This document shows positions 1 to 11,242 of a stretch of DNA of 64,000 nt, piece after piece. Each line of letters opens with the position of its first letter. Position 1 is the first letter of the stretch. The position numbers and the translations under genes were made by a program. The notes beneath the pieces are model-generated. The model had not been told where the DNA came from. It searched no databases and saw nothing but the letters and a program-made list of their open reading frames with translations. This DNA comes from Nostoc edaphicum CCNP1411 (GTDB lineage Bacteria > Cyanobacteriota > Cyanobacteriia > Cyanobacteriales > Nostocaceae), in contig NZ_CP054698.1 in NCBI RefSeq assembly GCF_014023275.1, positions 7,091,001 through 7,155,000 on the forward strand, in the 5' to 3' direction.

Positions 1-290
1 CCTCCTTCCAGATGGGTAACAGTGGTAAAACCCGCATCAAATAGCTTTTGAGCAGCCATTGTCGAACGATTCCCAGAACGACAGTAGAGAATCACTTTTG
101 TGTCTTGATCTTGGGGAACTTTGCGCGGATCAAATTTGGATAGGGAAATCAGGGTTGCTCCGGGAATATGCTCTCCTGCATACTCAGCTGGTTCACGGAC
201 ATCTATAAGTGTGATAGCTTGTTGCTTCAACAACTGTTTGAGTGTTTGAGTATCAACGGTTTGTAATTTATTGAGACGGGAAGTAGTCAT
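1..290 (-). CDS. Rhodanese-like sulfurtransferase (partial, runs off the window)
   Basis: Single rhodanese domain; the C-terminus lies beyond position 1. The start is the ATG at 288-290 (MTTSRLNKLQ). Visible landmarks are the IDVREPAEY entry motif and the active-site loop YCRSGNRS with the persulfide-carrying Cys, followed by AAQKLFDAGF. Rhodaneses move sulfane sulfur between persulfides, thiosulfate and thiols, probably in the cytoplasm. It lies 56 bases downstream of the persulfide dioxygenase gene on the same strand, so the two are probably co-transcribed from the operator-bearing promoter at about 1080. That pairing is typical of sulfide detoxification operons. The family call is firm; the operon is inferred from spacing. 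Confidence 0.9.
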   Translation of the reverse strand, partial: MTTSRLNKLQTVDTQTLKQLLKQQAITLIDVREPAEYAGEHIPGATLISLSKFDPRKVPQDQDTKVILYCRSGNRSTMAAQKLFDAGFTTVTHLEG

Positions 291-346
291 TGCTTTTTAT
301 AATTAGGAATGTAGATTTTTAAACGCAAAGTTTTTGTGTGATTTTG

Positions 347-1042
347 TTACGCAGCAACGCTACCGCAGCGCTGGTTAGCGGGTACTGCTTCCATAATCTT
401 TTTCGGGTTGGGTAGATTCAGGTTTCCCATCAATTGGATAAATTCGCTGCGGTTTCGTCCCACCAGCCGCGAATTCCATTGTTTCTCTTCCCCAATGCTG
501 GAAACTGTGTTACCTCGATAATCATGACCGGGATAAACTAAGGTTTCGTCAGGTAATGTAAACAAACGTTGCGTTATTGCGTCATACATTATCCCTGCGT
601 TCCCACTTTGAAAGTCAGTCCGTCCACAACCACGAATTAACAAGGCATCTCCGGTAAGTAAATGAGTACCATTAACTAAATAGGCATTATGGCTATCAGT
701 ATGACCCGGAGTAGCGATCGCCTTTACTTTCAGACTCCCTAACTCTAATACTTCTCCATTTTTCATAAATCTGTCTGCACATATAGCTTGGGCATTTTCC
801 GGTACAATCCCCAAACAACCCGTAGCCTCCCGCAATTTAGCTGTCCCAGTAATATGATCGGCGTGGATATGGGTTTCTAAGCAGTATTTGAGAGTTAATC
901 CTAGTTCTTTTAGTAATTGGCGATCGCGCTCTACCTGTTCTAATACTGGATCGACCAAAATCGCCGTTTTAGTCTCTAAATCTGCAATTAAATATGTATA
1001 GGTGCTTGTTTCCGGGTCAAAGAGTTGTCGGAATAACATCAT
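347..1042 (-). CDS. ETHE1/persulfide dioxygenase-type metallo-beta-lactamase-fold protein
   Basis: 231 residues. The metal-binding signature THIHADH is near residue 57, followed by the family markers GHTDSHNAYLV, TGDALLIRGCGRTDF and VYPGHDYRGNT. These markers distinguish sulfur dioxygenases from ordinary lactamase-fold hydrolases. Members oxidise glutathione persulfide to sulfite with a mononuclear Fe(II). Two Met codons stand at the start (1037-1042); either could be used. The rhodanese follows directly downstream, which would handle the same sulfane-sulfur pool. A 20-bp operator identical to the one before arsR lies 38-57 bases upstream of the start, suggesting repression until sulfide or persulfide appears. 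The substrate is inferred from the family. Confidence 0.9.
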   Translation of the reverse strand: MMLFRQLFDPETSTYTYLIADLETKTAILVDPVLEQVERDRQLLKELGLTLKYCLETHIHADHITGTAKLREATGCLGIVPENAQAICADRFMKNGEVLELGSLKVKAIATPGHTDSHNAYLVNGTHLLTGDALLIRGCGRTDFQSGNAGIMYDAITQRLFTLPDETLVYPGHDYRGNTVSSIGEEKQWNSRLVGRNRSEFIQLMGNLNLPNPKKIMEAVPANQRCGSVAA

Positions 1043-1079
1043 GGCTAACTCCAGATAAAATTGTTTGATTAATCAATAG

Positions 1080-1099
1080 TATAACTATATAGTAATATA
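1080..1099. promoter_or_regulatory. Predicted ArsR operator, site A (dioxygenase promoter)
   Basis: The sequence TATAACTATATAGTAATATA contains the dyad TAACTATATAGTAA. The same 20 bases occur on the opposite strand at 3993-4012 in front of arsR. The site is 38-57 bases upstream of the dioxygenase start, where a repressor would block transcription initiation. Binding by the local ArsR protein is inferred. Confidence 0.7.
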
Positions 1100-1151
1100 T
1101 TGTCCACACTGGAGTTAGTTTTTTTGTGGCTGTTGCGATCGCCCTTTTGAT

Positions 1152-1187
1152 AAAAAAAGCAACCCGAAGCATTTTTACTTGGGTTGC
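1152..1187 (-). terminator. Rho-independent terminator of psbA
   Basis: Read on the minus strand, GCAACCC (1187-1181) pairs with GGGTTGC (1165-1159) and is followed by a run of seven T. It lies 46 bases after the psbA stop codon and separates psbA from the dioxygenase promoter. Confidence 0.75.
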
Positions 1188-1232
1188 CTACACTGTTTTT
1201 GAGGAGTTAAAACGAACTGAATTCAGAATTAA

Positions 1233-2318
1233 TTAACCGTGAATAGCGGGAGCAGCAAAAGCCACAGGTTGAATGTCCCCAGCAGCTAAATCTAAGGGGA
1301 AATTGTGAACGTTGCGTTCGTGCATTGTTTCAATTCCCAAGTTAGCGCGGTTTAAAACATCAGCCCAAGTATTAATTACAACACCTTGAGAATCAAGAAG
1401 GGAATCGTGAAAGTTAAAACCATTGAGGTTAAAGGCAAAAGAAGATACGCCCAAGGCAGCAAACCAGATACCAATTACTGGCCAAGCAGCTAAGAAGAAG
1501 TGTAAAGCACGACTATTGTTAAAAGATGCGTATTGAAAGATCAATCTACCGAAATAACCGTGAGCTGCGACAATATTGTAAGTTTCCTCTTCTTGACCAA
1601 ATTTGTAACCGTGGTTTTGGGATTCAGTTTCAGAGGTTTCTCGAACTAAAGACGAAGTAACTAGAGAACCGTGCATGGCAGAGAATAAAGCACCACCAAA
1701 GATACCAACTACTCCCAACATGTGGAATGGGTGCATGAGAACGTTGTGTTCTGCTTGCAATACAAGCATGAAGTTGAAAGTACCACTAATCCCTAAAGGC
1801 ATCCCATCAGAGAAAGAACCTTGACCAATAGAGTAGACCAATATTACCGCAGTGGCAGCAGCAACAGGTGCGCTGTAGGCAATAGAAATCCAAGGACGCA
1901 TCCCTAAGCGGTAAGATAATTCCCACTGACGACCCATGTAGCAGTAAATACCAATCAGGAAGTGGAAAATAATCAACTGGTAAGGGCCGCCATTATATAA
2001 CCACTCATCTAAGTTAGCCGCTTCCCAAATGGGATAAAAGTGCAGACCAATTGCATTGGAAGTAGGCACAACCGCAGCAGTAATGATGTTATTGCCATAG
2101 AGTAAAGCACCAGCGACAGGTTCACGAATACCATCTATATCTACAGGTGGTGCAGCAATGAAAGCAATGACGAAACAAGTGATTGCCGTTAAGAGTGTGG
2201 GAATCATCAGTACACCAAACCAACCAATGTACATACGGTTGTTGGTACTGGTGATCCAATTGCAGAATTTCTCCCAAAGATTGTTACTACTTTGGCGTTG
2301 TTGCAGAGAAATAGTCAT
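1233..2318 (-). CDS. psbA: Photosystem II reaction-centre protein D1, D1' (low-oxygen) type
   Basis: 361 residues from MTISLQQRQ. An upstream in-frame Met exists but would add a non-homologous leader. In standard D1 numbering (this protein is one residue longer at the N-terminus), the Mn/Ca ligands D170, E189, H332, E333 and D342 and the mature end A344 are present. So are Tyr161 and its partner His190. Residue 130 is Gln, as in low-light D1 forms. Residues 80 and 286 are Ala, two of the three marks of D1' proteins induced at low oxygen; the third, 158, is Ile rather than Leu. Pro162 is Ser. A 16-residue processed C-terminal tail follows A344. A predicted ArsR operator lies 53-76 bases upstream. 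It is a special-purpose psbA, not the housekeeping copy. Confidence 0.95.
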
Positions 2319-2370
2319 AATTTTTAATTCCGAGGTTAATCGTTGTTCAAGGCAAGTTAACCTTATTCTT

Positions 2371-2394
2371 TTATATAACCACATAGTTATATAA
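2371..2394. promoter_or_regulatory. Predicted ArsR operator, site B (psbA promoter)
   Basis: A perfect inverted repeat: TTATATAAC, six-base spacer, GTTATATAA. The core TAACCACATAGTTA fits the 14-bp consensus shared with sites A, C and D. It lies 53-76 bases before the psbA start. Confidence 0.65.
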
Positions 2395-2555
2395 GATGTC
2401 AAGTAAATTCTCATATTGCTTTAAAGTTATTTTGATAGGCAGTGAGTTTGAGGCGTGACAAGCGGGCTGTAATCTAGACTGGGCTTTCACTTTAAGTTAA
2501 AAAAAAGAATTGTATCGATAGCGTCGCGGAAAGTGCCGCAACTTGCATTGCATCC

Positions 2556-2593
2556 AAGGTCAATCCCACGTTTTTAAACGTGGGATTGACCTT
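2556..2593. repeat. Perfect 18-bp palindrome
   Basis: AAGGTCAATCCCACGTTT, then TT, then its exact reverse complement. It lies between two divergent promoters. It is most likely a small dispersed palindromic repeat; a transcriptional role for the hairpin is possible but unsupported. Confidence 0.75.
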
Positions 2594-2724
2594 CTGCCTT
2601 GTCTACGACACGCTACGCAAACGTACTTCTGCCTTATAGCGGGAACATACTTGTACCCCTTGCGGGAAAACGAAAGCAGGAACAGAGTCATCTTTTAGAA
2701 AGATTTAACTAACTAATTCATTAA

Positions 2725-2740
2725 ATTACTAAATAGTAAT
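2725..2740. promoter_or_regulatory. Predicted ArsR operator, site C (Rieske promoter)
   Basis: ATTACT-AAAT-AGTAAT, a perfect dyad whose core TTACTAAATAGTAA fits TWACYAHATAGTWA. It lies 87-102 bases upstream of the Rieske ATG. Confidence 0.6.
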
Positions 2741-2826
2741 ATAGTAGAAGAGTGAATAACGTTTACTGAATCAAAACATTAAACTCCAGACTCAACACCT
2801 ATGCTGAAACTAAGAGGTATAAAATT

Positions 2827-3360
2827 ATGACGGAGAGTCTTCCTCTAGAAAGTCCCTCAATGTCGAGGCGACAATTGCTAAACTTTATCACAGGTGCAGT
2901 TGTTGCCACTACAGCCAGCAGCCTACTGTATCCTGCGGCTAAATTCTTTGTTGCCCCCACAGAAGTGGGTGAAGATGGTTCTATCCTCGCTAAGGATATT
3001 AACGGAAATCTCATTCCTGCTAGCCAGATTTTGGCTGAACCCCCTGGTACTCGTGCTTTAGTCGCGGGTTTAGGAGCAGAACCTACTTACCTAACAATAC
3101 AGTCAGATGACACCCTGCACCCTTGGGGAATTGTCGATAACTGCACCCATTTGGGTTGTACCTTTCCTTGGAATCCCAATGACAATCAATTTCAATGTCC
3201 TTGTCACGGTTCTCGCTATGATCCCGATGGGAGAGTAGTACGGGGGCCAGCACCTCTTCCCCTCAAGCTTGTTAGTGTTAACTTGGAAGGGGAGTATATC
3301 CGAATTTCTCCCTGGACGGGAATTGACCCCCGCACTGGGCAAAAACCTTGGTGGGTTTAG
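2827..3360 (+). CDS. petC: Cytochrome b6f Rieske iron-sulfur protein (alternative copy)
   Basis: 177 residues, close to the usual cyanobacterial PetC length. After an N-terminal MSRRQLLNF segment a single hydrophobic helix (about residues 18-35) acts as uncleaved Tat-type anchor. The 2Fe-2S binding motifs are CTHLGC and CPCHGSRYD, with two Cys and two His as ligands and the disulfide pair present. The end GQKPWWV is normal for the family. It transfers electrons from plastoquinol to cytochrome f or plastocyanin. Cyanobacteria commonly carry several petC copies. This one is not next to petA but shares an operator type with a D1' psbA, the persulfide dioxygenase and arsR, so I infer a condition-specific subunit. 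Confidence 0.93.
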
Positions 3361-3543
3361 CGGGTACTCAAACCTGATGGTCGTCACAGGATAATATTAA
3401 TTAAAAATTGCAAGACGCGACGCTAACGTGGACTCGCTTGCCGCCGGCGCTATCAGTGGGGGCTTGTACCCTAAATTAATTAATTAATTAAAAATTATTT
3501 ATTATCCTTCTTAATTTTTAACTTTTAATTTTTAATTTTTAAT
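3361..3543. other. petC-arsR convergent intergenic region
   Basis: Non-coding, AT-rich. From about 3475 it contains runs of the TTTTTAA/TTAATTA heptamer type seen elsewhere in the window. No gene is visible. Confidence 0.5.
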
Positions 3544-3568
3544 TAAAAAGGGGAGTAGGGAAACTCCC
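3544..3568 (-). terminator. Terminator of arsR
   Basis: On the minus strand GGGAGT pairs with ACTCCC across a short loop and is followed by C and five T. It lies just downstream of the arsR stop. A second small hairpin, CTCAG/CTGAG, sits at 3581-3595. Confidence 0.6.
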
Positions 3569-3602
3569 AAGAAACTTTTTCTCAGTCAAGCTGAGAATAT
3601 AG

Positions 3603-3968
3603 TTATTTTGAGAGGGTGCTAAAAGCTTTGATCTGTTCAAATTCTTTAGCCCGTTTTTGTATTTGGTTGCCAATGCGATCGCAAACTAATTCGCATAATT
3701 CAAAAATCACAGGGTCACTGATCGCATAGTAGACGCTAACTCCCTTTTGCTGACGGGACACCAAACCTGCTTGGGTCAACACCTTTAAATGTTTTGAGAG
3801 ATTGGCTTGTCCTAAACCCGTAGCTTCACCCATTTCGGTAACGTTCATCGGCCCGGTTCTGAGACAACTCAAAATCTGTAAGCGACTGGTTTCAGAGAGT
3901 ACCTTAAAATACTCTGCAACGGGAGCAAGGATTTCTGAAGTGTTTTTTCGAGAAAGAGTCTCTGACAT
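3603..3968 (-). CDS. ArsR/SmtB-family winged-helix repressor
   Basis: 121 residues of one winged-helix DNA-binding domain: KVLSETSRLQILSCL (helices 2-3), the recognition helix region GLGQANLSKHLKVL, and the wing RQQKGVSVYYAI. Cys35 is in the second helix and Cys92 and Cys96 are in the C-terminal helix. Persulfide sensors of the BigR/SqrR type also pair Cys residues in those two helices, though the spacing around Cys35 is shifted by one. Metal sensing through the same Cys cannot be excluded. An exact copy of its own upstream operator stands before the dioxygenase gene, and related sites stand before psbA and petC. Autoregulation and control of all four units are inferred. Confidence 0.9.
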   Translation of the reverse strand: MSETLSRKNTSEILAPVAEYFKVLSETSRLQILSCLRTGPMNVTEMGEATGLGQANLSKHLKVLTQAGLVSRQQKGVSVYYAISDPVIFELCELVCDRIGNQIQKRAKEFEQIKAFSTLSK

Positions 3969-3992
3969 AAGGATTCAATTTCATATATAATT

Positions 3993-4012
3993 TATATTAC
4001 TATATAGTTATA
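3993..4012. promoter_or_regulatory. Predicted ArsR operator, site D (arsR promoter)
   Basis: The reverse complement of this segment is TATAACTATATAGTAATATA, identical to site A. It lies 25-44 bases upstream of arsR, overlaps the last codons of the preceding small membrane-protein gene, and implies autoregulation. Confidence 0.7.
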
Positions 4013-4275
4013 ATTTGTTCTTGATAAAGTTCTGCGACCAAAATTCCCGAAGCGTCAATGGGCGGTAAGTTTGTAAAAATGGCAATTTCCCACTCTTGGT
4101 TATGGGTAGGACGAGTTAACTTTTGTGAGTTGCGTAGCACTTGGATTTGTAAGTTATTATTTAAGCCATTCTTTTCATGAATTTGCTGAACTGCTGCGGC
4201 TATGACAAAAATTGTTAGTACAGCCTGTCCTATCCATGCGATAATTTGATAACCTTTCCAATTCAGAATTTTCAT
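4000..4275 (-). CDS. Small single-span membrane protein, unknown function
   Basis: 91 residues: a short N-terminus, one hydrophobic helix (about residues 10-27, IIAWIGQAVLTIFVIAAA), then a polar domain. No family recognised. It follows the DUF2254 gene by 43 bases on the same strand and could be the last gene of that unit. Its stop codon falls inside the arsR operator, so its 3' end and the regulatory site overlap; the last residues (IITI) are encoded by the operator itself. It may have been shortened there. Confidence 0.55.
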   Translation of the reverse strand: MKILNWKGYQIIAWIGQAVLTIFVIAAAVQQIHEKNGLNNNLQIQVLRNSQKLTRPTHNQEWEIAIFTNLPPIDASGILVAELYQEQIITI

Positions 4276-5668: not shown

Positions 5669-6672
5669 TGTTCGTTGGTTTGAGAATCTACTTTACCGTT
5701 GTTATCTTCTGAGGAGCGTGCTTGAGCAAGTAACCTGAGCGAATCGCTGATGCGGCGAGGCTTCGGTACTTCACCTTTACCTGCGGGCCAACCTTCACGC
5801 TGACGAGAGCGGTTTCCATCTGTCTCTTCTGTCTGGTCGTGGAACAAAATTTGTTGAGTTGGGAAGGGCAAATCAATGCCGTTTGCAACCAGCTTTTTCT
5901 TGATTGCAATAATCACTTTATCCCGCGAAATAAGATTATCTGCCCGTCGTGGTGGATGAACCCACCAGCGCACCCGGATATTGACAGTGCTTTCGGCTAG
6001 TTCCATTGCTAGTACATCAGGAGCCGGGTCTTTTAAAACCTCATCTACACTAAGCATTGCGTCTAGCATTAACTGCTTGGCACGGTCAATGTCATCGTTG
6101 TAGCCAATTCCGACATCGTACTCTAATCGGCGGTTATCAAAAGCAGTGTTTACAGTTACTGAATTAGTAAATAACTCCGAGTTAGGAATGACAATCCGCC
6201 GACCGTCATAAGTTCTGATTGTTGTTGCGCGTGTCTCAATATTTTCGACCGTTCCCTCAAAGCCTTTAAAAACAATTTGGTCATCAATTTGAAAAGGTTC
6301 AGTTAGCAGAATTAAAATTCCAGCTAAGAAATTTTGCAAAATATCGCGGAAAGCAAAACCAATTGCAACACCACTAATTCCTAAAAGTTGTATCAAATCA
6401 CCGGCTTGAAATGTAGGAATCACAATGGAAAGGGCGATAAATAACCCAATCAAAATTGTCAATCCCTGCGCTAACCTTCCTAGTACTAGACCTAAATTTC
6501 GGGCAGAACGACGATTGCGAGTTAAGCGCTTGACAAGTGCCTTAATTCTGCTAGCAATAAACAAAAATAAGATGAAGACAATTAACCCTAATAAAATGTT
6601 TGGCAGCAAAGCTATAAAACCGTTAATCATGCTTTGAATCTTATCCCAAGCTGTGGATATTTCTGCATTCAT
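5665..6672 (-). CDS. MscS-family mechanosensitive ion channel
   Basis: 335 residues. Three hydrophobic segments (about 20-45, 70-90 and 95-125) lead into the MscS pore helix and beta domain. The QLLGISGVAIGFAFRDILQN stretch is the pore-lining helix; DQIVFKGFEGTVENIETRATTIR and VIPNSELF are beta-domain hallmarks. The last about 70 residues are a charged, probably disordered tail. These channels release solutes at high membrane tension. The DUF2254 gene overlaps its 3' end. The truncated ion-channel protein lies 40 bases upstream. Confidence 0.92.
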   Translation of the reverse strand: MNAEISTAWDKIQSMINGFIALLPNILLGLIVFILFLFIASRIKALVKRLTRNRRSARNLGLVLGRLAQGLTILIGLFIALSIVIPTFQAGDLIQLLGISGVAIGFAFRDILQNFLAGILILLTEPFQIDDQIVFKGFEGTVENIETRATTIRTYDGRRIVIPNSELFTNSVTVNTAFDNRRLEYDVGIGYNDDIDRAKQLMLDAMLSVDEVLKDPAPDVLAMELAESTVNIRVRWWVHPPRRADNLISRDKVIIAIKKKLVANGIDLPFPTQQILFHDQTEETDGNRSRQREGWPAGKGEVPKPRRISDSLRLLAQARSSEDNNGKVDSQTNEQ

Positions 6673-6712
6673 GAAGTTTCCTCACTAAGTAATTTTTGCT
6701 AATGTTAACGCT

Positions 6713-6964
6713 CTAAATTCTGATGCAATAATTCTTGAATTTCCCCGGTTTAAGTAGAAAATCTAATATAAAAATAATCCAAATAGTGATGCTAAAGGCT
6801 TCCAGTAAAGAGTTTAATCCCCAGATGATCTCGATGATGAATAGTGCTAGCCATACAAAGCCCAGCACCAGCATGGGAATTTCTAGCCAATCTTCCAACT
6901 GGTGCAAAACTTCATTACGTTCTTTTTCTAGGGCTTGTTTTTCTGAAAGCTTCAGACTACTCAT
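6713..6964 (-). CDS. Two-helix membrane protein resembling the N-terminus of a potassium channel
   Basis: 83 residues with two hydrophobic helices (IPMLVLGFVWLALFIIEIIW and an AFSITIWIIFILDFLL segment). The LEDWLEIPMLVLGFVWLALF and IIWIIFILDFLL wording resembles the first helices of cyanobacterial voltage-type ion-transport proteins. Those continue for two hundred or more residues with a pore loop, whereas here the protein stops after FLLKPGKFKNYCIRI. No pore sequence is left downstream because the MscS gene begins 40 bases later. It is either a short accessory protein or a truncated channel gene. Confidence 0.5.
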   Translation of the reverse strand: MSSLKLSEKQALEKERNEVLHQLEDWLEIPMLVLGFVWLALFIIEIIWGLNSLLEAFSITIWIIFILDFLLKPGKFKNYCIRI

Positions 6965-7046
6965 AGTATTAATTCGTAATTCGTAATGACGCTCGATGAC
7001 TCGCTAACGCTGCGCTAACGTAATTCGTAATTTTAGATAATTGGTT

Positions 7047-8330
7047 TTATTGTTTACTAGCAGGGGTTTCTAGTACGTTGACATCAACTAGAGGTGTCAC
7101 ATTTAAGTCCTGTTTCAATAGATTGGTTTGAATTGATTGGGTGAGGCGATCGCGAATTTCTTCACTAGACGCTGTAACTCCCGGTTCACGCTGCACATAA
7201 ACAACAGATAGCAGGGTATCCTGTCCTTCAATATTGGATCGTGTAAAGCGGACATTCGACTCGACTAATTTTGCTAAACCAACTTGCTCTACAGTTTTCT
7301 GAACTTGGGCGTTAGCACGTTGGGCAAGGCTAGAGCGTTGTAAATTGGGAGAATGAGAGAACTGCCAAGTCAGCAAACCTGCCAATGCGATGACAGTAAT
7401 CGCTAAGGCAATACCGAATACCCGTTTTTTACCACGCTGATAGCGAGTTCCTTGAGCAGACAGCCCGAACACTCGGAACAACAGGGATGCTGAAAAGTTG
7501 ATGCCGCATAGTTGCAAAAACAGTAAGAACAGCCCCGAAATTGCCATGTCCCATCTGCCAATTGCACCAGCCATACCTATGATTCCCGCAGGTGGGGCTA
7601 AAGAAGCGGCAACTAACATTCCTGTTGCTGCCCCAGATACTAAACTACTCCGTTCTGACTGCACCAAGTTCAGCGCCCCTGCTGCTCCGGCTGCCAATGG
7701 TAAAATCACTGCTACTGCTGAAACCTGGCTGCTGTCTAACATTAAACTGGTGGGAATTTCTTGCCGTAATATCAGGCTAAGTAACCAAGTAGTGGCAATT
7801 GTGACTGTTAATGCAGAAAAATACCGTAGAATACTCCGTCCTAAGAGTTTGCGATCGCCCCATGCAGTAGCGATCGCTGTATTCATTGCCGGGCCTGCAA
7901 AGGGTGCTATCAGCATTGCCGCCACTAGCAAGTAAGCTGTATTAGTATACAAGCCAATCCAGACTACAAAGCCTGCCAGTGCTGCATAACCAAGAAAGCC
8001 TCGCCAAGAGCCAACACTTTGCAAACCAGAAAGAAAAATCTCAATCGGACTGCGTTCTTCCACATCTACAACTTGTTGCGGCGCTTCCGATGCAGGGGGT
8101 TGCAGAGTCATCACACCAGTTGGTATGAGCGTGATTTGTACTTTGGGCAAGTCTTGCAACTTGTCCAGAACTTTGCCAACTTCTCGATTAGAAACGTGAA
8201 CAATCACCACATCAATCGGTTCTTCAGCATTGCCTTCAAATCGAGCCAGATTTGTGCCGTTATGAGATTTGGCGATATCGATAACAGCTTTTCCATTTCC
8301 CCGTGGCACTTGAATAATGAGTTGACGCAT
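7047..8330 (-). CDS. DUF389 family membrane protein
   Basis: 427 residues. The N-terminal soluble region (about 1-105) starts MRQLIIQVPRGNG and has a ferredoxin-like alternation. A hydrophobic core with about six helices follows, with the family motif AAMLIAPFAGPAMNTAIA (about residue 140). A C-terminal soluble domain of about 110 residues ends the protein. The function is not established. It heads the minus-strand set of membrane genes (DUF389, channel-like, MscS, DUF2254, 91-residue protein), though the 82-base gap to the next gene contains repeat sequence, so a common transcript is uncertain. Confidence 0.88.
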   Translation of the reverse strand: MRQLIIQVPRGNGKAVIDIAKSHNGTNLARFEGNAEEPIDVVIVHVSNREVGKVLDKLQDLPKVQITLIPTGVMTLQPPASEAPQQVVDVEERSPIEIFLSGLQSVGSWRGFLGYAALAGFVVWIGLYTNTAYLLVAAMLIAPFAGPAMNTAIATAWGDRKLLGRSILRYFSALTVTIATTWLLSLILRQEIPTSLMLDSSQVSAVAVILPLAAGAAGALNLVQSERSSLVSGAATGMLVAASLAPPAGIIGMAGAIGRWDMAISGLFLLFLQLCGINFSASLLFRVFGLSAQGTRYQRGKKRVFGIALAITVIALAGLLTWQFSHSPNLQRSSLAQRANAQVQKTVEQVGLAKLVESNVRFTRSNIEGQDTLLSVVYVQREPGVTASSEEIRDRLTQSIQTNLLKQDLNVTPLVDVNVLETPASKQ

Positions 8331-8657
8331 TCTACCCTCCTACCGCTAACCATCTTGTTTTTTCAGACAAGAACTCTACTACCCAAAGAAAGATTTTTTG
8401 AAATATATATCTCATTCAATTAACACTTGATTTTTGTCCGTAAAATTGCTAGAACCTAGGAAAATCAAGGATAGGTCAGGCAAAAAAGCAGATTGTGCAG
8501 ATTATAAATAAACGTTTTATCACTTTATATTTTAGATTTAGATTAAATATTAATTCAACAGTAATGATTTTTTAGACATAAATATCCTTCTGGAGAAAGA
8601 AGGAGTAAAAACTTATATTTTTACAATTAAAAAGGTAAATTTAGGAGGAAAAAGAAG
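8331..8657. other. Intergenic region, divergent promoters
   Basis: AT-rich. The only clear signal is a strong Shine-Dalgarno sequence (GGAGGAAAAAG) directly before the ATG at 8658. Promoters for both divergent genes must lie here, but I cannot place them. Confidence 0.5.
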
Positions 8658-8876
8658 ATGGCTTTATATAAACTCGAAGACTTTGCTGGTAACTATAGCA
8701 ATCCAGATTTTGATAACTATGAAGTTAGGGATTTTGATGTCTATTCAAACATAGATGACGATAAAGTTGGGACTGTCAAACACATCTTGGTGGAGGCTTA
8801 CTGGATACAGCAAGCCTTGGCAACATACTCACCATCGCCTATGGTGGGGCGTAGCCCATCGCACTCCAACTATTAG
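8658..8876 (+). pseudogene. Truncated PRC-barrel-type stress protein
   Basis: A strong ribosome binding site is followed by MALYKLEDFAGNY and FDVYSNIDDDKVGTVKHILVE. This is the start of cyanobacterial PRC-barrel/DUF2382 proteins, which normally continue for 200 or more residues. Homology stops after about 45 residues; the rest (AYWIQQALATYSPSPMVGRS...) is repeat DNA shared with the end of the convergent HAD gene. The signals to make the short peptide are intact, so it may be expressed, but the barrel is incomplete. Confidence 0.6.
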
Positions 8877-9612
8877 GAAATGGCAAAATATTAAAATAAA
8901 TCAATCCTTCAAGAATACCCGCAGCACCAGGGTAGTGAGCTAGAAAGTTCCAAGGGTAACGTGTTTTATAATACCACCACAGAAGTTCCGTTTGGGCATT
9001 ACCAACGATAATCCCAGCTGATGGCTGTTGAAATAAGCTGATGTCATTTCCAGAACCTCCACAGATAACGGTTGCATCTGATTGCGCTTGCAGCAATTCT
9101 TGCAGATATGCAGTTGCTTTACCTTTGTTGCTGTTCTTGGGTATAATATCAACGTCCCGCCCATTGCTGAAAATTACCTCCACTTGCAATCCAGTAAAAG
9201 TTAACAAATCCTGCAAATCATGGATAACCTCAAGTGGCGCATCCATATCTAGGCAAAAGCTTAATTTATAGGGAGTTTGTTCGCTGTCAGGTTGAGGTAT
9301 CAGTGCTGGAAAGTAACTAGCAATTGTCCAAACTGCATCCCAATTCCAATCTCTTGAAATTTGATTTGCCCAATCTTTTTCTAAAAGCACGCCCTGTTGA
9401 TAAATTTCAGTGCCTGCACTAACGATTAAATAATCGGGTTTCAAAAGCCATGCTTTTGTTATCACCCGACGACTAGAAGCATAAGAGCGACCAGTAACAT
9501 AGACTAAGTAAATCTGATTGCGTATAGCTTCTAGCCTTTGGTTTAAAGCAGCAATAGCTCGATTGTTACCAACCAAGGTATTATCTAATTCAATCACCAA
9601 AAGCAGTTTCAT
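8839..9612 (-). CDS. Sucrose-phosphate phosphatase-like HAD protein with altered nucleophile
   Basis: 257 residues of the sucrose-6F-phosphate phosphohydrolase family. HAD motif I reads VIELDNTLVGNN, motif II VYVTGRSYASSRRV, and motif III CGGSGNDISLFQ. The normal motif I is DLDNT, where the first Asp forms the phospho-aspartate. Here it is Glu8 (codon GAA), while the acid/base Asp10 remains. The family removes phosphate from sucrose-6-phosphate, and the sucrose-phosphate-synthase-like gene lies just upstream on the same strand, so the pathway fits. Activity is doubtful without the Asp. The last about ten residues are encoded by a repeat overlapping the PRC-barrel remnant. Confidence 0.8.
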   Translation of the reverse strand: MKLLLVIELDNTLVGNNRAIAALNQRLEAIRNQIYLVYVTGRSYASSRRVITKAWLLKPDYLIVSAGTEIYQQGVLLEKDWANQISRDWNWDAVWTIASYFPALIPQPDSEQTPYKLSFCLDMDAPLEVIHDLQDLLTFTGLQVEVIFSNGRDVDIIPKNSNKGKATAYLQELLQAQSDATVICGGSGNDISLFQQPSAGIIVGNAQTELLWWYYKTRYPWNFLAHYPGAAGILEGLIYFNILPFPNSWSAMGYAPP

Positions 9613-9775
9613 ATTTGCTTGTTTCTACTAAAACAGTACAGTATTGATAAACCTCTTTCCTCTTGCTCTCGTTCGGCTCCTTTCGACTCTGCTCAAGGCA
9701 AGTCGCTCATGGCAAGCCTTCTCCCAGCAAGAACTGCGGTATTAATGATAAGTCTTTAACCGGCAACGATATCAT

Positions 9776-11242
9776 TTAACTGGTTGCCCACTGGACAATG
9801 CCATTAGAAAAAGAGTCAATCAATTTTTCTAAAGCTTTAATTTCATTTGATTTCAAAACTTTCGACTTCAATAAATTTTGGATTTGTCTTTCCAAATCTG
9901 GAGTTAACTTTTTAGTTTGAATAATTTCTTGAACAAATGTATCAAGTGTCAAAGATTGATAGAGTTCGTGAACTTGGGTGGCAACTCCCTGAGTGCTAAA
10001 ACGAGACTGAACCCAATTTTGTGCAGCATTGCCATAGCTTTGTTTTAGAGTTGGGTTTTGTAATAGACTATGAATCGCGATCGCCAATGCTTTAGAATCA
10101 CGAGGAGGAACTAAAAATCCGGTTTCACCATGCACTACCGTATGCTGCAATCCTCCCACATTACTAGCAATTACGGGTGTTCCGGCTGCCATTGCTTCAA
10201 TCGCCACTAAACCAAAAGGTTCGTAATAACTCGGTACAACGCATATATCCCCTGCGGCATAGTAAGCAGGTAACAGCGCTTGAGAAATTCGTCCAGTGAA
10301 AACTGTAACGGCTTCCAATCCCAGGTCGTTCACCAAAGTTTCAATGCGTTGTTGTTCTTTGAAGTCTGCTCCGTCTTCACGGCAACCACCAACTAGATAG
10401 AGTTGAAATGCTGAAGGCAACAAATTGGCGCAAGCTCTGACTAGGGTTTCAACTCCCTTGCGTGGGTCAAAACGTCCTACATACAAGATTATCTGAGAAT
10501 CTGGAGCAATTCCCAACTGTTGGCGAGCAACTTCTTTACTGACAGAACCAAAGTGTTCAGTATTAATTCCACAGGGAATAACTTTAATACGACCATGTTG
10601 CGAAATTAACTGACGTAAATCTTCTGCTTCTTGAGGGCTAGTGGATATTACATAATCTGCTTGTTCTAAAATTGCCCTCTCCACACAATTACGAATTGCA
10701 GCAATCTGCGGCGGATTCTCCACATTGCGGTATTTGACTGCACCTATAGAGTGATAGGTATGAACTTGAGGTAGTCCTAATCGAGATTTAAGTTCTAATC
10801 CTACCCAAGCAGAAAGCCAATAGTTAGTGTGAATCAAGGCATAGTTGCGCCCTGTTCGTTGTTGAAAATCCAGCCAAGCTTCTACAAATTCGGGTAGGTA
10901 TTCAAATAAATTATTTCTAGAAATGAATTCTGCTGGCCCAGCATTTAGACGAATAGTGCGACACCCTGGTGCTAATTCCACAATTTCTTCTTGATTGGGG
11001 TGTTCGCGTCGGGTAAACATATCAACCTGACAGCCGCGTTTTGCTAATGCTAACCCCAATTCTCGCACGTAGACATTTTGACCACCTGCCCCTTCTTTTC
11101 CAATTTCAGCTGTCGGGTCGCCATGAACTGAAATTAGCGCATACATAGGTTGAGAATTTGGGGGTTGAGAATTTGGCGTTTCTGGAGCAGAATTTTCTAA
11201 AGATTTAACTAAATTTAAAGTAGGAAGAGTATTCATAATCAA
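9776..11242 (-). CDS. Sucrose-phosphate synthase-type GT4 glycosyltransferase
   Basis: 488 residues, GT-B fold. The N-terminal domain begins YALISVHGDPTAEIGKEGAGGQNVYVRELG, the signature of cyanobacterial sucrose-phosphate and sucrose synthases. The C-terminal domain has YVGRFDPRKGVETL and the nucleotide-sugar site YEPFGLVAIEAMAAGTPVIAS (EX7E). The first 30 residues are low-complexity (Pro/Asn/Gln). The last about 55 residues form a helical tail not usual for the family. Expected reaction: NDP-glucose plus fructose-6-phosphate to sucrose-6-phosphate. The HAD phosphatase-like gene follows 163 bases downstream. A related GT4 specificity is possible. Confidence 0.78.
   Translation of the reverse strand: MIMNTLPTLNLVKSLENSAPETPNSQPPNSQPMYALISVHGDPTAEIGKEGAGGQNVYVRELGLALAKRGCQVDMFTRREHPNQEEIVELAPGCRTIRLNAGPAEFISRNNLFEYLPEFVEAWLDFQQRTGRNYALIHTNYWLSAWVGLELKSRLGLPQVHTYHSIGAVKYRNVENPPQIAAIRNCVERAILEQADYVISTSPQEAEDLRQLISQHGRIKVIPCGINTEHFGSVSKEVARQQLGIAPDSQIILYVGRFDPRKGVETLVRACANLLPSAFQLYLVGGCREDGADFKEQQRIETLVNDLGLEAVTVFTGRISQALLPAYYAAGDICVVPSYYEPFGLVAIEAMAAGTPVIASNVGGLQHTVVHGETGFLVPPRDSKALAIAIHSLLQNPTLKQSYGNAAQNWVQSRFSTQGVATQVHELYQSLTLDTFVQEIIQTKKLTPDLERQIQNLLKSKVLKSNEIKALEKLIDSFSNGIVQWATS

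Follow-up and report, generated by a model that had tools for sequence, protein, structure and literature searches.

The first 4,275 nucleotides (nt) of a 64,000-nt stretch of the Nostoc edaphicum CCNP1411 genome (contig NZ_CP054698.1 of 7.7 Mb, positions 7,091,001 to 7,155,000 of the forward strand; the whole stretch is called the window, and positions in it are counted from its first letter) encode a rhodanese-domain protein, a persulfide dioxygenase (PDO), a D1 protein of the variant kind D1', an alternative Rieske protein of the cytochrome b6f complex and an ArsR-family regulator, and contain four copies (A to D) of a 14-bp dyad. The dyad also stands in front of further genes to the left of the window, and it recurs at such genes in other cyanobacteria. 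The regulon that it marks, joining the exchange of photosynthetic subunits with the oxidation of sulfide, is real and conserved, and the ArsR-family protein, judged from the sequences, is its likely repressor. The features are these:

3..290, minus strand, cut by the window edge: rhodanese-domain gene (PF00581, E 4.4e-19)
347..1042, minus strand: PDO gene (closest solved chain 4ysb, E 9.4e-83; human ETHE1, 4chl, E 1.7e-67)
1082..1095 (20-bp form 1080-1099): dyad A, 39 bases upstream of the PDO start, touching the -10 element of a 10/12 promoter match
1233..2318, minus strand: psbA gene encoding D1' (TIGR01151, 744 bits; A80, I158 and A286 by alignment)
2376..2389: dyad B, 57 bases upstream of the D1' start, directly preceded by TTGACA
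2726..2739: dyad C, 87 bases upstream of the Rieske start
2827..3360, plus strand: alternative cytochrome b6f Rieske gene, petC2-like (equivalog NF045928, 279.8 bits, cut-off 250)
3603..3968, minus strand: gene of an ArsR-family regulator, the candidate repressor (PF01022, 45.8 bits, cut-off 22; NF033788, 84.9 bits, cut-off 55; cysteines C35, C92 and C96; model pLDDT 85.7)
3997..4010 (20-bp form 3993-4012): dyad D, 28 bases upstream of the arsR start, overlapping a -10-like element

Matches to profiles and solved structures bear out the identities that a preliminary description of this DNA had given to the PDO, rhodanese, psbA, b6f Rieske and ArsR genes. The solved structures nearest to PDO match it over nearly its whole length, and the closest chain, 4ysb, is one that we take to be a PDO. 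PDO is the first gene of a PDO-rhodanese-TauE unit that runs leftwards past the window edge; the complete rhodanese gene reaches 256 bases beyond position 1 to the left, its 181-residue product having a C-terminal part that is hydrophobic, and a TauE/SafE exporter gene (PF01925) comes next. The D1 protein had been assigned to the low-oxygen type, which is supported by residues A80 and A286; I158 deviates, most proteins of the kind having leucine there (A80 and L158 are presumed here to be marks of microaerobic D1). The Rieske protein had been called the second of its genome; its b6f identity stands, and Rieske genes of the petC kind at E<=1e-15 number three in the genome rather than two, the others being 72% and 44% identical to that of the window, the latter adjoining a gene that reads as petA. 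A 91-amino-acid open reading frame (ORF) in 4000-4275, co-directional with arsR and directly upstream of it, has its stop codon within dyad D and has no Pfam or NCBIfam match.

The four sites at 1082-1095, 2376-2389, 2726-2739 and 3997-4010 are exact matches to the motif of the preliminary description, which had placed them close before four start codons and had noted 20 bases common to A and D. Both statements were confirmed: the measured gaps are 39, 57, 87 and 28 bases (PDO, D1', Rieske and ArsR, respectively), and 1080-1099 is the reverse complement of 3993-4012 at 20 of 20 bases, dyads A and D being identical and opposite in orientation (20-bp form approximately ATATWACYANNTRGTWATAT). When the whole 8.3-Mb genome was searched, exact matches proved nearly confined to this cluster, with six places (reversed control, three): the four dyads of the window, one site 13 kb left of the window before sqr, and one inside an ORF (C3:35139), which was set aside from the regulon. 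The sqr site (L007:6141-6154; L and G numbers designate fetched loci and genomes) was not used in building the motif and was found with the motif already fixed. It lies 116 bases before the gene of an FAD enzyme identified as sulfide:quinone reductase (SQR) by its best solved match (3hyv, E 8.7e-103, residues 3-408) and by three aligned cysteines, which we take to be the redox cysteines; a look for sqr left of position 1 had been suggested from the window sequence.

A symmetric form of the motif, TWACYANNTRGTWA, occurs at 16 places in the genome (reversed control, 31), of which six are packed into 16.9 kb, each 28-116 bases ahead of a start codon; at the density of the reversed control, the probability of at least six sites in 16.9 kb is 8e-11. 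As this form was picked only after the sites had been seen, independent testing comes from the sqr site and from other genomes. The symmetric motif adds a site at L007:9411-9424, 101 bases ahead of an operon-like run of genes for a YgaP-type membrane protein, another Rieske protein, a NifX-like protein, a BLH phosphatase, a small thioredoxin and an ArsP-type permease. Six units within 16.9 kb are thus fronted by the dyad (PDO, D1', Rieske, arsR, SQR and the second-Rieske operon). The compact regulon proposed earlier holds in that one operator-like dyad is common to these genes, and it is larger than was proposed, with six units here and others elsewhere.

The ten symmetric-motif places outside the cluster comprise five inside ORFs, two that overlap ORF starts (those of a small ORF and a SurE-like gene, named by reading) and three that are intergenic (one with no ORF start within 300 bases, one in the gap between a polA-like gene and another ORF, and one about 280 bases before a Dps-like gene). 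Besides C3:35139, nine further distant places were considered, and none was admitted to the regulon. The intergenic dyad before the Dps-like gene is at G000:C6:110291 (L197:2291); a Dps-like gene also adjoins the D1' dyad in locus L076.

Promoter-like matches number ten in the scanned stretch against 7.4 expected, which is weak evidence; dyad D overlaps the -10-like element of a 9/12 match before arsR. The placement of the dyads at or near predicted promoters would fit a repressor that blocks RNA polymerase. Alternatively, the dyads might be chance palindromes of AT-rich intergenic DNA, and matches with up to two mismatches are indeed no commoner in the genome than those of the reversed control (180 versus 230), while the window has 17 against 11.15 expected, a number reached by 9 of 100 shuffles. 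Because the window count is near that of the shuffles and the genome count is below that of the reversed control, such loose matches are uninformative. Chance is opposed by the clustering of the exact sites, by the sqr site and by the comparison of psbA genes that follows, and can be considered extremely improbable.

The cleanest control is the comparison within the psbA family. The set took in every psbA gene that had 150 nt or more of upstream DNA within a locus fetched for other reasons; it is not a random sample, some loci having been picked for the D1' look of their psbA or for the proximity of arsR. Genes were classed by alignment, and pieces that were too short or had less than 150 nt upstream were dropped. 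A dyad with at most one mismatch was found within 300 nt before 18 of 31 psbA genes encoding Ala286 and before none of 46 encoding Thr286 (p 1.3e-9); the reversed motif was found at one Ala286 gene and no Thr286 gene. In the subset that came from D1 searches, part of which was hand-picked from a list, the counts were 6 of 14 and 0 of 32 (p 3e-4). The two classes are distinct at other residues as well, with A80 and L158 in 28 of 31 Ala286 genes, and G80 and F158 in 45 of 46 Thr286 genes. In the N. edaphicum genome itself, the dyad is missing from six psbA copies of the Thr286 class and from a divergent one with Ala286; the divergent copy (G000:C6:7364678-7365712, in locus L176) is 67% identical to D1' and may represent a rogue D1 or ChlF. 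Cyanothece BG0011 has an exact dyad before the D1' gene, on a contig different from that of arsR, and Fischerella sp. PCC 9431 is an example of a strain that carries the dyad at both D1' and arsR. In Thermosynechococcus, the D1 protein that is activated under microaerobic conditions is PsbA2, with Ala286 for Thr286 (PMC9709244).

Conservation of the dyad around arsR was surveyed at two levels. Among 148 genomes of the order, 127 have an ArsR relative at E<=1e-20, a count that includes a distant paralog which is an outgroup in the tree. In genome G035, of the same family, arsR is identical to that of Anabaena sp. 4-3 (L117), which by itself suggests a Nostocaceae-type source for the present DNA. 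In the 20 best fetched loci other than that of N. edaphicum, a dyad with at most one mismatch within 300 nt precedes the D1' gene in L040, L043 and L054, a Rieske gene in L039, L044, L054, L055 and L057, and the SQR gene in L039, L054, L055 and L057; base-wise shuffles give such a dyad in 2% of 300-nt stretches. A wider scan covered one genome per species in 84,980 species, and the best 80 of 371 arsR candidates were kept as named loci. For these, dyads with at most one mismatch were tallied in the 200 nt upstream of each ORF, those with less than 100 nt upstream or with identical last 100 upstream bases being dropped. The dyad was present at 36 of 76 arsR genes, 7 of 11 D1' genes, 8 of 20 acsF genes, 2 of 3 petC genes, 2 of 4 SQR genes, 2 of 2 BLH phosphatase genes, 1 of 2 rhodanese genes (0 of 1 of a second kind) and 1 of 1 YgaP-type genes, as compared with 36 of 895 other ORFs; since the set was drawn by arsR, genes of one locus in this tally are not independent. 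These genes therefore carry the dyad far more often than other promoters do, and the objection raised beforehand, that it might be equally frequent elsewhere, does not hold. At least one of the genes for D1', petC, SQR, PDO, acsF, heme oxygenase and HemN is present in 34 of the 80 loci, 25 of the 80 being shorter than 15 kb (for this count, SQR and PDO matches under 45% identity were dropped).

The closest relatives of arsR (L060 and L061, approximately 6500-9800) are near genes for heme oxygenase and a coproporphyrinogen-oxidase-like protein and not near D1'. In a member of the Leptolyngbyaceae, genes for D1', AcsF, heme oxygenase, HemN and a desaturase-like protein, named partly by reading, are flanked on the two sides by ArsR paralogs that belong to different groups (L134:9165-17020). 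At L203:6819-8994, PDO is beside sqr and arsR and is split by an inserted ORF that reads as a transposase-associated gene.

Of the 20 named loci that have acsF near arsR, 12 show the dyad within 300 nt of acsF (L073, L076, L090, L097, L100, L101, L103, L111, L114, L120, L124 and L125), and at L208:7012 an exact dyad is found between the heme oxygenase gene and acsF. The label of these acsF genes as chlAII-like rests on their neighbours. Low-oxygen chlorophyll synthesis may thus belong to the regulon in other lineages; in the N. edaphicum genome, no dyad with at most one mismatch precedes the heme oxygenase gene of the heme oxygenase-HemN pair.

The dyad is probably the operator of the ArsR-family repressor encoded at 3603-3968, which would govern six units including its own gene. 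This protein is favoured as the binder because a dyad, exact or with at most one mismatch, precedes the start of arsR itself in many genera and because arsR is located among the targets; a small ArsR-type repressor is a candidate for the common switch because one dyad fronts six gene groups and recurs at such genes elsewhere. Membership in the ArsR/SmtB family is indicated by a winged-helix ArsR domain scoring above the curated cut-offs of PF01022 and NF033788. The best Foldseek match of the ArsR model is SmtB (1smt, E 7.5e-7), and in a structure comparison ordered by Z, rows for LmrR come first (11.1) with BigR (10.3) and SmtB (10.1) close behind; the comparison indicates only a winged helix of the ArsR/SmtB type, and no sensor class. 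Helix 5 of the model (86-119) contains C92 and C96, and C35 lies where the first long helix ends. Among 24 relatives, C96 is conserved in 24, C92 in 23 and C35 in 19; several members of a sister group that are located beside PDO genes also have C34. A second ArsR of N. edaphicum, encoded beside a biotin-carrier-like gene (L220:1429-1776, in G000:C6), has the same two helix-5 cysteines, and its group has relatives in several genomes.

Several observations weigh against a uniform regulon under ArsR. Dyads with at most one mismatch are lacking at 13 of the 31 Ala286 psbA genes and, within 200 nt, at 40 of the 76 arsR orthologs; arsR lacks one in all eight Microcystis loci (at best three mismatches in 300 nt). 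In the 80-locus tally, they were found at only 1 of 4 PDO genes, 1 of 10 heme oxygenase genes, 0 of 9 HemN genes and 0 of 4 TauE genes, some of which are inside operons. An exact dyad is retained at the closest arsR relatives, those of N. punctiforme NIES-2108 and Calothrix NIES-4101, and the seven psbA genes found in these strains all encode Thr286. Thus, the content of the regulon varies between genomes. Persulfide sensors of the SqrR/BigR kind have a pair of cysteines at set places, in helix 2 and in helix 5. When the sequence is aligned with YgaV, the cysteines at 35, 92 and 96 do not fall on those of its pair: the first YgaV cysteine aligns to S34, the residue before C35, and the ends of helix 5 in the two proteins are unaligned. 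In genome G005, only the distant ArsR paralog was found at E<=1e-20, and yet a one-mismatch dyad is present at its D1' gene. Finally, the motif of ChlR given in the available part of PMC13421787 (5'-TTMCC-N3/4-GGWAA-3') fits some of the dyads by inspection, for example TTACCATATGGTAA at L204, and some dyads at sister-group arsR genes fit both motifs.

The strongest alternative is a different binder: the dyad might belong to ChlR or to some other low-oxygen regulator of the MarR type, with arsR as one of the targets. ChlR, whose [4Fe-4S] cluster is oxygen-sensitive and which activates when oxygen falls, resembles the present system in its low-oxygen gene set and in a palindrome with similar half sites (PMC13421787 and PMC4500134), and its regulation of such genes would agree with the dyads at acsF (8 of 20 within 200 nt, 12 of 20 within 300 nt) and with the mention in the latter paper of psbA1 in Synechocystis as a possible ChlR target. 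ChlR is, however, an activator of another family, and a search for its literal motif in the 300 nt upstream of the arsR, acsF, heme oxygenase, hemN and D1' genes of 21 arsR-linked acsF loci gave no match, nor does it fit, by inspection, any of the four dyads of the window. The dyad, moreover, precedes arsR itself and is located among sulfide genes. Cyanothece ATCC 51142 has no chlR according to PMC4500134 (the exact D1' dyad is in another strain, BG0011), and strains with low-oxygen genes and without chlR probably use another mechanism, as stated there. A search of the N. edaphicum genome with PF12802 gave six matches, of which two are ArsR-type and none is recognisable as ChlR, although no ChlR query was used and the search does not show absence. 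On balance, a ChlR-like binder is rather unlikely, and ArsR remains the preferred candidate.

Should ArsR be the binder, the choice of signal is led by the target genes and is a guess; arsenite or another thiol-reactive signal is also possible. ArsR may work like a persulfide sensor while being outside the SqrR/BigR subfamily, because its cysteines are conserved but the first YgaV cysteine falls at S34 and the score for the curated BigR model NF040642 (39.7 bits) is below the cut-off of 155; one row of the structural alignment places 25-96 of the ArsR model onto 33-107 of BigR. A metalloid or metal signal (arsenite or antimonite), to whose response the sulfide and photosynthesis genes would be subordinate, could be read by the clustered cysteines, which could bind As(III), and an ArsP-type permease is encoded in one target operon. 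The plasmid-borne sqr and arsR of Synechocystis are expressed in light-dependent arsenite oxidation as with sulfide, according to passages of PMC5061849 that refer to Nagy et al. 2014. On the other side, arsB, arsC and arsA were not noticed in any of the six units, and D1', Rieske and acsF have no evident metalloid role, their relatives rising in microoxic cells (PMC5295598, as far as its available text shows). A metalloid response as the basis of the regulon is therefore improbable.

From the sites, the gene set and their conservation, which are observed, we infer ArsR as the binder, repression and the signal in the following scheme. While the cell is in air and sulfane sulfur is scarce, a dimer of ArsR would be bound on or beside the promoters and would repress arsR and five other units: D1' psbA, the alternative Rieske gene and PDO-rhodanese-TauE, together with SQR and the second-Rieske operon to the left of the window. 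The helix-5 residues C92 and C96 (and C35 in many members) would read a thiol-reactive signal that accompanies sulfide or low oxygen, and ArsR would then leave the DNA. SQR would then pass electrons from sulfide into plastoquinone, the D1 subunit of photosystem II and the Rieske subunit of b6f would be exchanged, and sulfane sulfur would be disposed of.

Much of this gene company is familiar. BigR operons contain PDO, rhodanese and TauE genes, and ygaV of E. coli adjoins ygaP; the persulfide-sensing repressors SqrR, BigR and YgaV are similar to the present protein in their ArsR fold, and the probable targets here include PDO, rhodanese and TauE, whereas the cysteine places are shifted, the BigR score is under the cut-off and the targets here are also photosynthetic. 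RexT of Nostoc PCC 7120 is likewise a cyanobacterial thiol-based ArsR repressor, but in the available description (PMC13421787) it differs in its motif (ATTCG-N15-CGAAT), its vicinal cysteines 40 and 41, and its target trxA2. The sqr-arsR operons of a Synechocystis plasmid and of Geitlerinema PCC 9228 have an arsR-type gene beside sqr, and the passages available from that paper (PMC5061849) place psbA genes of anoxygenic or micro-oxygenic kinds near sqr, with a hint of linked transcription; in those systems there is proximity only, whereas here sqr, D1', two Rieske units, PDO and arsR have promoters of their own that share one dyad. The occurrence of petC2 beside sqr, and of arsR beside sqr, has also been noted (PMC11304991). 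In Acaryochloris, a psbA1-DUF2892-Rieske-rhodanese cluster (similar to slr1181-slr1185 of Synechocystis) resembles the locus in its D1', alternative Rieske and adjoining rhodanese genes and in microoxic induction, with log2 rises of 2.62 for psbA1 and 4.03 for the neighbouring Rieske gene (acsF and heme oxygenase of Acaryochloris rise by 6.37 and 5.22), and the Synechocystis cluster is reported to behave alike under microoxia; the available portion of that paper (PMC5295598) names no regulator for the cluster and mentions no arsR, PDO or sqr. Among the papers listed by searches of open-access full texts, most of them judged from the listing, no description of an ArsR protein controlling psbA or petC was recognised. 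As the gene associations are already published, it is the common operator and the candidate repressor that appear to be new here.

Cyanobacteria keep cryptic copies of psbA and petC that are switched on at low oxygen, and some strains live on sulfide. A broader proposal, put forward tentatively and with somewhat less than even confidence, is that a thiol-sensing ArsR is the master switch at low oxygen and high sulfide, which would command the exchange of D1 and Rieske subunits, SQR, the clearance of sulfane sulfur and, elsewhere, the chlorophyll cyclase used at low oxygen. The cryptic microaerobic psbA of these lineages would have in it their missing regulator, one that reads sulfur chemistry rather than the state of an iron-sulfur cluster. 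If the common operator and its candidate repressor are borne out, the exchange of reaction-centre and b6f subunits and the oxidation of sulfide would be one programme, which would bear on how cyanobacteria functioned in sulfidic, oxygen-poor water.

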